From NCBI GenBank assembly GCA_018402345.1, contig JAGYIV010000007.1:62001-126000 (forward strand): a stretch of DNA of 64,000 nucleotides, in the 5' to 3' direction. The notes under the pieces were generated by a model that did no database searches, was not told where the DNA came from, and saw nothing but the letters and a program-made list of their open reading frames with translations. A program made the position numbers and the translations under genes. Of the stretch, positions 2,289 to 42,221 are shown piece by piece. Every line of letters begins with the position of its first letter. The first letter of the stretch is position 1. This DNA comes from Terrimicrobiaceae bacterium. Its GTDB lineage: Bacteria > Verrucomicrobiota > Verrucomicrobiia > Chthoniobacterales > Terrimicrobiaceae.

Positions 2289-3005
2289 TTAGGCGTGAAG
2301 CTCCTGTTGCAGGAAGTGCATCGCTGTTTCTAATGTGCAGACGGGGGTGGTTTGGGCGATGTAGGTGTCTTCTGCGATGGGGGGGAGGTTGCGCAACATG
2401 CCGAGTTGATGCTTGAGCAGGAGTCCGGCGGGTGCGGGAAGATCCAGCTTGTCGAGAAAGCCCAGACCACGCTTGCCGAAGAGGTCTCTGCATTGAGGGA
2501 GGTGCAGGTTGTGCTGGGCGCCGAGAAGGCGATGGATGCGGTTGCGCACTCTGGTGCGTTGCCGAACGCAGAAGGAGCGCTGGTGGAGAACCTCCTTGCG
2601 CTGCCAAGCGGGCTTGGAAGGAATGTAAACTTCGCAGATCATTTCAGCACGCAGGAGCCTAGCGAGGATATGGGCATCGACCTTATCGTTTTTGACTTGG
2701 GATTCGGCGATGATGCGGGTCTTGAAGGCATCGGCGAGAATGATGTCTTTTTGTGCAAGATGGGGCTCGAGGAGTTCGTAGAGCCACGCCCAGTTCATGG
2801 TGGTCTCGAACACCACACGACAGCGGGGATGTCGCTGGATCAGGTGAATGAAGAGCTCCGGTGTGCTGTGATCGATGCGCCCCTTATCAAGGACGCGGTC
2901 TGCGGAATCGATCGCGCAAAAAACACTGTATCGCTTATGGAAGTCGATTCCGATAAAGGTTGTGTTGTTGTGGGATGTGGTTGGTTTGGTCATAAGACCG
3001 CCCAT
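2289..3005 (-). pseudogene. IS110-family transposase, C-terminally truncated
   Basis: 238 residues; the start may be the second Met at 2993. The N-terminal half is the DEDD RuvC-like catalytic domain of IS110 transposases: 'IGIDFHKRYSVFCAID' with the first Asp, 'VVFETTMNWAWLYELL' with the Glu, and 'AFKTRIIAESQVKNDKVDA' with the closing Asp pair, followed by the basic linker. Family members are normally about 300-400 residues and end in a Transposase_20 domain with a helix-hairpin-helix and a catalytic Ser. Here the protein stops soon after the linker, so that second domain is absent and the element should be immobile. No element ends were identified. Confidence 0.75.
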
Positions 3006-3083
3006 CCTACAACATCCATTTTATCAACTTCCAGAGCCCGATCCGCCCGCCGAGCCAGACAGGATCAAGCTTTCATGTCGGCT

Positions 3084-34316: not shown

Positions 34317-34740
34317 GGCTTTGGTTCCGGGCAAATAATCCATCCTGCTGGGGCCTCGCTTTTTTTGGCAGGGGATATCCTGAACCTCATCTAAAATTGC
34401 GGGATCGACCCTGCGGGCGAAGTGTTCACAGCGGTCCTGATCCGCTACGCCAATGATGAACCCCAACGATCACCCCCCGCTCCAGCCCGAGCGGTTTGTT
34501 ATGTAAGTCTGATTGCCGTGTCCCCGCCGCATCTGCGCGCCGAACTCGTTTCAAGCGACCGGCAAAAAAATGGCCGATCGGCCAAAAAAATGGCGGATTC
34601 AGAGGGGGGTTGCTTTGGTTGGTTCCAGGTTCGAGTGGAGACGTTCAGATGCCGCAGGAAGAGACGTTAACCCGCAACGTATTTTTCCAACCAACCACGC
34701 TGGATCATCTCTTGGGCCAATTGAAAGAATGAGCAATTTC
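34317..34740. other. Intergenic stretch with one palindromic element
   Basis: 424 bp between convergent genes. It holds palindromic element copy 2 and several short frames without recognisable motifs. I see no other gene. Confidence 0.6.
34556..34600. repeat. Dispersed palindromic element, copy 2
   Basis: Core tggccgatcggcca at 34571-34584, bracketed by seven-A runs on each side (aaaaaaatgg... and aaaaaaatggcgga). Its left arm matches the left arm of copy 3. Confidence 0.7.
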
Positions 34741-41872: not shown

Positions 41873-42009
41873 TGGCGACCCTAACGGGATTGATGTCGGC
41901 GTTCCGCCGCCACCCTTCGGGCTGCTCCTGCGTCGCAGTCTGTCTCGCTTCGCTCGGCTCGAACGGTGTTCGAATTTTTTTGCTGTGCAAAAAATCGCCA
42001 AAATGAATT
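41873..42009 (-). repeat. 137-bp tandem repeat downstream of tRNA-Glu, distal copy
   Basis: Identical to 42010-42146 except at two positions. Read on the plus strand it starts with tggcgaccctaacgggatt, the exact 19-nt complement of the last 19 nt (with CCA) of the tRNA-Glu at 42147-42221, then diverges. It includes the hairpin ttttttgc-aca-gcaaaaaa. The period is exactly 137 bp from repeat to repeat to tRNA. Confidence 0.9.
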
Positions 42010-42146
42010 TGGCGACCCTAACGGGATTGATGTTGGCGTTCCGCCGCCACCCTTCGGGCTGCTCCTGCGTCGCAGTCTGTCTCGCTTCGCTCGGCTCGAA
42101 CTGTGTTCGAATTTTTTTGCTGTGCAAAAAATCGCCAAAATGAATT
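42010..42146 (-). repeat. 137-bp tandem repeat downstream of tRNA-Glu, proximal copy
   Basis: This copy directly abuts the tRNA-Glu 3' end and differs from the distal one by c/t and g/t at two sites. On the transcribed strand each unit would run from spacer into a copied tRNA 3' end, like the repeats behind E. coli tyrT. Confidence 0.9.
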
Positions 42147-42221
42147 TGGCGACCCTAACGGGATTCGAACCCGTGTTACCGCCGTGAAAGGGCGGTGTCC
42201 TAACCGCTGGACGATAGGGTC
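42147..42221 (-). tRNA. tRNA-Glu (anticodon TTC)
   Basis: 75 nt including an encoded CCA. The 7-bp acceptor stem is GACCCTA/TAGGGTC; the D arm is GTCC...GGAC; the anticodon stem CCGCC/GGCGG encloses the loop CTTTCAC; the T arm is CGGGTTCGAATCCCG. It is followed by the 137-bp repeats that copy its 3' end. Confidence 0.97.

Follow-up and report, generated by a model that had tools for sequence, protein, structure and literature searches.

Tandem units behind a tRNA-Glu gene of a Terrimicrobiaceae bacterium as putative tRNA-linked repeats of the RtT type

The window studied here, the whole stretch of 64,000 nucleotides from a Terrimicrobiaceae bacterium (Verrucomicrobiota), carries behind its tRNA-Glu gene two tandem 137-bp units that, judged from their sequence, can be assigned to the tRNA-linked repeats (TLRs) of the RtT type. 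They would be new members, at the level of a phylum, of a class that is known and unexplained. This identity is supported by the order of the parts of the unit and by reciprocal model searches, in which the RtT model finds verrucomicrobial units and a model made from verrucomicrobial units finds those of E. coli. The preliminary description had proposed that the E. coli tyrT/rtT arrangement occurs here on another tRNA, and both lines of evidence bear this out.

The array downstream of tRNA-Glu

As shown in Table 1, the two units abut the tRNA gene on the minus strand, the first of them beginning at the base after the CCA end. The array (41873-42165) was detected by Tandem Repeats Finder with a period of 137, 2.1 copies, 98% matches, no indels and a score of 572. 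The units differ from each other at 2 of the 137 positions (98.54% identity), and the 3' end of the tRNA is identical to both tail copies over 19 of 19 positions. Such a paired exact recurrence of 19 nt within a tandem repeat of 98.5% identity cannot be chance. The repetition of the CCA-bearing 19-mer at 137 and 274 bp, the two differences between the units and a strong T/A hairpin in each of them had all been noted in the preliminary description, and they agree with what we found. Its layout, a tRNA-Glu followed by two 137-bp units, also stands, with the corrections that the array runs on the minus strand and that the copy proper is of 17 nt; the tail copy closes each unit. This copy proper, from T60 (the last base of the T-loop) to A76 with the CCA end, was defined in this way because a unit behind tRNA-His (L104) leaves out the two T-loop bases AG that precede T60; the exact 19 nt of the window include two A's that are common to the end of the body.

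Table 1. Features of the tRNA-Glu gene and of its tandem array, in window positions.
Feature	Position	Strand	Evidence or remarks
tRNA-Glu(TTC), intact, encoded CCA	42147..42221	minus	ARAGORN; Rfam tRNA 68.9 bits
Original tail, 19-nt tRNA 3' end AATCCCGTTAGGGTCGCCA	42147..42165	minus	sequence
TLR unit 1, 137 bp: leader hairpin, palindromic helix, hairpin-chain body, tail copy	42010..42146	minus	Tandem Repeats Finder; Rfam RtT 25.8 bits; in the training alignment of model R1
TLR unit 2, 137 bp, 2 differences from unit 1	41873..42009	minus	Tandem Repeats Finder; Rfam RtT 25.9 bits
Tail copy 1, exact	42010..42028	minus	sequence
Tail copy 2, exact	41873..41891	minus	sequence
Terminator-like hairpin from the tRNA's own 3' end, TCGCCAAATTCATTTTGGCGATTTTTT	42126..42152	minus	sequence; 10-nt complementarity TGGCGATTTT / AGGGTCGCCA with G-T pairs; uncalled by the simple terminator scan on this strand; recurs one unit on, at tail copy 1
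T/A hairpin TTTTTTGC-ACA-GCAAAAAAA	unit 1 42112..42131; unit 2 41975-41994	minus	sequence
Palindromic helix TTCGAAC-ACA-GTTCGA (inverted T-loop motif and GTTCGA)	unit 1 42096..42111; unit 2 41959-41974	minus	sequence
Hairpin-chain body GCCGAGCG...CAACATC, between GTTCGA and tail copy	unit 1 42029..42095; unit 2 41892-41958	minus	kin dispersed in the genome

In the genome that holds the window (G000, 3.14 Mb), all 45 tRNA 3' ends were compared with their surroundings. Downstream repetition of a tRNA's own 3' end is restricted to two of them, Glu(TTC), with offsets of +137/+274, and Ser(TGA), with offsets of +138/+276. The Ser(TGA) array (L094) lies outside the window, at about 120212-120512 of contig 8, and is formed by two 138-bp units, with one mismatch in the final tail copy. 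The sequence of its spacer is unlike that of the Glu spacer, but the order of parts is identical: a leader hairpin, a stretch complementary to the first bases of the tail, GAGAAC-NNN-GTTCGA, a hairpin chain with CCGAAGGG at the same position, (A)TCAA, and the tail copy.

A search for the 137-bp unit in its own and related genomes had been suggested in the preliminary description, and the complete unit occurred in G000 solely in the window array, with weaker kin of its middle part only, while Glu units were also found in two congeners, G006 and G010. Elsewhere in the window, a 20-bp tandem repeat of 2.2 copies is located at 34556-34598.

Identity with E. coli rtT and structure of the unit

The TLRs of E. 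coli, on which the literature goes back to Egan and Landy (1978) and Rudd (1999), as described in PMC8144298, comprise 22 copies at ten loci, with 18-19 bp at the 3' end being identical to the upstream tRNA or rRNA (PMC8144298). They are found in one to five copies, and transcription with the tRNA or rRNA followed by processing has been shown for RrA/B/F and RttR. A role in the stringent response or starvation once ascribed to rtT was withdrawn, as the phenotype was due to a nearby reading frame (PMC8144298), and dispersed attenuator-like elements of enterobacteria that resemble rtT have been reported as BIMEs (PMC2965389).

The window array presents the two features of TLRs that are readable at the sequence level, i.e., identity to the 3' end of the upstream tRNA and location directly downstream of it on the same strand, here in two units. 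In this it resembles the E. coli TLRs, which likewise follow their tRNA directly and on its strand, as a single copy or several in tandem, each ending in 18-19 bp of the tRNA 3' end; the difference is in the genes accompanied, which are those of Tyr, Lys, Arg and 5S rRNA in E. coli and those of Glu and Ser (also Thr, Ala, His, Asn and Pro) in Verrucomicrobiota. The unit is of 137 bp in the window, compared with a range of 98-178 bp among the E. coli copies that we measured. The repeats of E. coli tyrT/tyrV (NC_000913) are organized as GGGGAAGGA-TGAGAAGCTTCGACCAAGGTTCGA-hairpins-CCCGAAGGG-hairpin-GAGTAA-TCCTTCCCCCACCACCA, with the parts in the same order as in the verrucomicrobial units. Those at lysV/lysQ belong to the window's own sub-type (ATTCGAACCTGCAGCAGGTTTGAGTTGAGCGCAGCGA; TTCGAAC...GTTTGA type) and have the body motifs TTCGAAC..GTTYGA, GAGCGNAGCGA, CCCGAAGGG and GAGTCA in common with the window units, and an element dispersed in G000 agrees with the final 26 nt of the lysV body at 25 positions. 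The TLRs at lysT, lysW, lysY, lysZ and the arg genes are shorter relatives.

The Rfam RtT model (RF00391; E. coli rttR) was searched across the whole of G000, where it gave four matches at E<=0.05, corresponding to the two Ser units (37.9 and 37.7 bits, aligned over their full length) and the two window units (25.9 and 25.8 bits, under the gathering threshold of 45 bits). The same model, used on 14 control genomes, matched in E. coli only, and it reached 45.8 bits, above gathering, in a genome of the same order (G209). Most of the other RtT matches inspected sit behind a tRNA-Ser or tRNA-Glu gene with a copy of its tail. In the reciprocal search, model R1, built from 12 verrucomicrobial units only (window unit 1 included), found all four E. 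coli tyrT/tyrV rtT units with 26.1-30.6 bits and E values of 2.8e-5 to 2.9e-4 (98.6 kb searched), and two alphaproteobacterial units with 36.9 and 33.4 bits (E 1e-6 to 6e-6); its best place in the window outside the units scored 13.3 bits. The window units are like RtT in part order and in models that find each other's units, and unlike it in their scores below gathering and in the Glu type being devoid of the T-stem-side closing helix and of the tpr start codon. A role for a tpr-like peptide was set aside, as the Glu units have no ATG at the place where the E. coli tpr frame starts.

With regard to the fold, the units carry the reverse complement of the start of their own tail, with a mean length of 4.66 nt in 41 units versus 2.92 (sd 0.24) when the tails were swapped, a value reached in none of 2000 swaps. 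The RtT helix in which the stretch preceding GATGAGAA pairs with the beginning of the tail copy is present in most non-Glu units and absent in the window Glu units. The Glu type could form a 10-nt pairing with G-T pairs, TGGCGATTTT / AGGGTCGCCA, at the opposite end of the tail, which may replace the lost T-stem-side closing stem. The inner helix has a tandem-GA form in 21 of the 41 units and a Watson-Crick form (TTYGAA..GTTYGA) in 8. That of the window is the Watson-Crick version TTCGAAC/GTTCGA, in the position where units of tandem-GA type have GAGAAC-NNN-GTTCGA, and the resulting GA-GAAC/GTTC-GA helix of the latter fits the helix framing a tandem GA for which covariation support was published in RtT (PMC8250186).

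Covariation of the spacer, another of the analyses suggested beforehand, was detected in six Ser-type units, in which both sides are changed in 8 of 28 pairs, with 97.6% of the cells paired compared with 33-44% in slid controls. These counts come from the Ser-type units, since hairpins of different length misalign and the RNAalifold consensus of a mixed Glu, Ser and E. coli alignment was consequently poor. Perfect triloop hairpins (stem >=4) are abundant, with 122 in the 41 units and 18.7 (sd 4.5) in shuffled sequences. The loops are of GNA type in 63 cases and TNC in 5, showing that the folded strand is the tRNA strand, and four-base GNRA loops are not prominent. C(GNA)G triloops are unusually stable in DNA, so the triloop data are compatible with selection on RNA and with selection on single-stranded DNA. 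The sense strand of the window unit folds better than its shuffles do, with z values of -2.8 as RNA and -3.0 as DNA. A simple terminator scan called no intrinsic terminator on the tRNA strand.

Distribution of the units and mobility of the body

The spread of these repeats was surveyed through pattern and model searches. Among 16 congeners, Glu units are clearly present in three (G000, G006 and G010), and at least ten have a bare tRNA-Glu without tail copy; in G006 and G010 the contigs are interrupted within the Glu array or where it ends. Two Glu tails 108-138 bp apart were found in ten stretches of the GTDB species genomes, eight of these stretches being from assemblies of Verrucomicrobia type and two being labelled Proteobacteria. 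A tail-independent pattern hit 78 of the 384 genomes of the class (Verrucomicrobiota) versus one hit for the reversed control. Many of these class-wide hits were two consecutive tRNA genes and were removed, and of the 70 loci retrieved, 41 in about 31 of the 384 genomes were confirmed as own-tail loci, i.e., with a copy of the tail of their own tRNA with <=2 mismatches and not formed by two consecutive tRNA genes. The confirmed verrucomicrobial units accompany the tRNAs for Ser, Glu, Thr, Ala, His, Asn and Pro, and the tail copy is always that of the adjacent tRNA. Both the number of hairpins and the number of copies vary among units, and several arrays finish in a partial unit. In the alphaproteobacterial class around L077, own-tail units were detected in about five of 115 genomes, one of them (L233) with GGGATGAGAACGACGTTCGA. 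Three further loci of alphaproteobacterial genomes (L234, L235 and L239) have own-tail copies and spacers that are partly TLR-like, and possibly represent a further sub-type. In the congener G012, a tRNA-Glu tail copy next to a recombinase-like gene is followed by a diverged TLR unit (L102), with no intact tRNA on the surrounding 3.2 kb (L037, ARAGORN). Most units have their nearest neighbour behind a tRNA of the same type in a related species, suggesting that vertical inheritance also contributes to the distribution of TLRs.

The preliminary description had allowed that a unit appearing behind many unrelated genes would be a generic dispersed repeat. This holds for the core body, which is dispersed, whereas whole units with their tail lie in G000 only behind tRNA-Glu and tRNA-Ser. 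The body consensus (66 nt; AGAATCGGAGCGAAGCGGAGAAAGACTGCCGCAGGCAGCCCGAAGGGCGAGGCGAAGCCGAGTCAA) has 39 matches in this genome, many of them incomplete. One body copy, on contig 4, interrupts a transposase gene as a 61-nt insert with no long target duplication, and the empty site CGACTTCCAT/AAGCGATACAG is known from three uninterrupted copies of that gene in G000, one of them being the insertion-sequence transposase gene copy at about 2854-3016 of the window. In a second transposase gene, an insert of ~62 nt was found in G014, with the same place filled in G004 and empty in G012 and G010. The ends of the inserts agree with the body junctions of the TLR units, A/GCCGAGCG...GTC/AA. These clean filled and empty sites of ~61 bp in two transposase genes indicate that the core body is mobile. 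In genome G165, the Thr(CGT) and Thr(TGT) units are nearly identical in their bodies but differ in their leaders, and each ends in the tail of its own tRNA.

As the body resembles this dispersed, precisely inserting element of the same genome, the unit reads as a second copy of the T-loop and 3' end of the tRNA, with the body placed in T-loop position, and tandemly repeated. The dispersed insertions had no tail-like long target duplication that could account for the tail copy at a new tRNA. Dispersed elements of G000, such as L173, L174, L178, L187 and L202, often adjoin short repeats of ACAGGATTAACAG or TTAAAACTT. A phage source was also sought, and viral contigs gave no array with the Glu pattern or with the core motif GGATGAGAACNNNGTTCGA; seven matches of GGATGAGAACNNNGTTCGA found there appear to be chance or phage tRNA arms.

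Origin and meaning of the repeats

Taken as a whole, the array is probably best explained as TLRs behind tRNA-Glu with a mobile hairpin-chain body, subjected to read-through and processing, and with an RNA role that is secondary. In its favour are the own-tail copies, the reciprocal model matches, the match of the units to the tail of their own tRNA, the covarying pairs and strand-specific triloops, the filled and empty sites and the patchy occurrence among congeners; against it are the RtT scores of the window units below gathering, the lost closing stem of the Glu type, the dispersed insertions without a long target duplication and the share of vertical inheritance. Transcription of the array would proceed by read-through from the tRNA promoter, and processing at the tail copies could then free unit RNAs whose 3' end is tRNA-like, by analogy with E. 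coli RttR and RrB. The number of copies would shift by slippage or unequal exchange between units. The bodies would be mobile DNA, and would colonise tRNA 3' ends time after time because the tRNA stays intact when the insertion is next to a duplicated tail; any role of the RNA would be lineage-specific.

Other origins have to be weighed against this. The 19-bp copies could be att cores left by the insertion and deletion of larger integrase-type elements at tRNA 3' ends, since these ends are common attachment sites and tyrosine integrases duplicate the same block of the tRNA. Two loci point in this direction, one in the congener G012 (L102; G012:C4 2714-4084, minus strand), where the start of a tyrosine-recombinase-like ORF of 456 aa adjoins a tRNA-Glu tail copy, and another (L082) in which tRNA-Glu and the TLR unit are separated by about 4 kb of inserted DNA that contains an excisionase-like HTH ORF among other genes. 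However, the window has no coding element between the copies, its spacer of 118 bp being too short for an integrase gene and containing chance ORFs only. Moreover, spacers are noncoding, conserved and structured, keep one order of parts in three taxa and at least seven tRNA species and are recognised by an RNA family model, and bodies insert in transposase genes without any att core, all of which makes remnants of this kind a very unlikely source. A simple tandem duplication of the tRNA 3' end and its terminator, being neither an element nor a function, would agree with the Glu-type tail and the next hairpin resembling a terminator and being the repeated part, and with the arrays that end in a partial unit, but the presence of the same ordered parts and homologous bodies at many tRNAs in distant phyla renders it highly improbable, and the reciprocal model searches largely exclude it.

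The units could also be a conserved small RNA under selection, a regulator like RtT or RrB in which tail and hairpins are kept for their function and mobility is incidental. The compensatory changes, the strand-specific loops and the helix that matches the tail are in favour of it, as are the binding of the three rRNA-linked RNAs RrA/B/F to Hfq and CsrA (PMC8144298), the detection on Northern blots of Actinobacillus RtT-family RNAs near Asn and Lys tRNAs (PMC4986893) and the covariation of RtT (PMC8250186). Nevertheless, we consider it unlikely, given that the units are patchy within the genus, vary in hairpin and copy number and have no single conserved sequence, that the Glu type has no start codon of an E. 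coli tpr-like frame, and that the TLRs of tRNA operons are reported with no known function (PMC8144298).

Palindromic elements of REP/BIME type are likewise small, hairpin-forming, dispersed and noncoding; here there is a chain of C(GNA)G hairpins, and the units carry a copy of the tRNA tail. A wider proposal, which we put forward as a tentative one and with more doubt than confidence, is that TLRs form a single cross-phylum class of tiny mobile elements (about 60-140 bp), whose body would insert precisely, prefer the T-loop end of tRNAs and, wherever it lands, recreate on its far side the 3' end of the local tRNA, with no mechanism known for this renewal of the tail.

The TLRs of E. coli go back to 1978 in the literature and have no accepted origin or function, and the published statement on their conservation that we found covers the Enterobacteriales (PMC8144298). 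With putative members in Verrucomicrobiota and Alphaproteobacteria, what was an E. coli curiosity would become a widespread class, and units whose tail varies with the tRNA and whose body appears to be cleanly inserted would make the origin of TLRs testable through the comparison of filled and empty sites.
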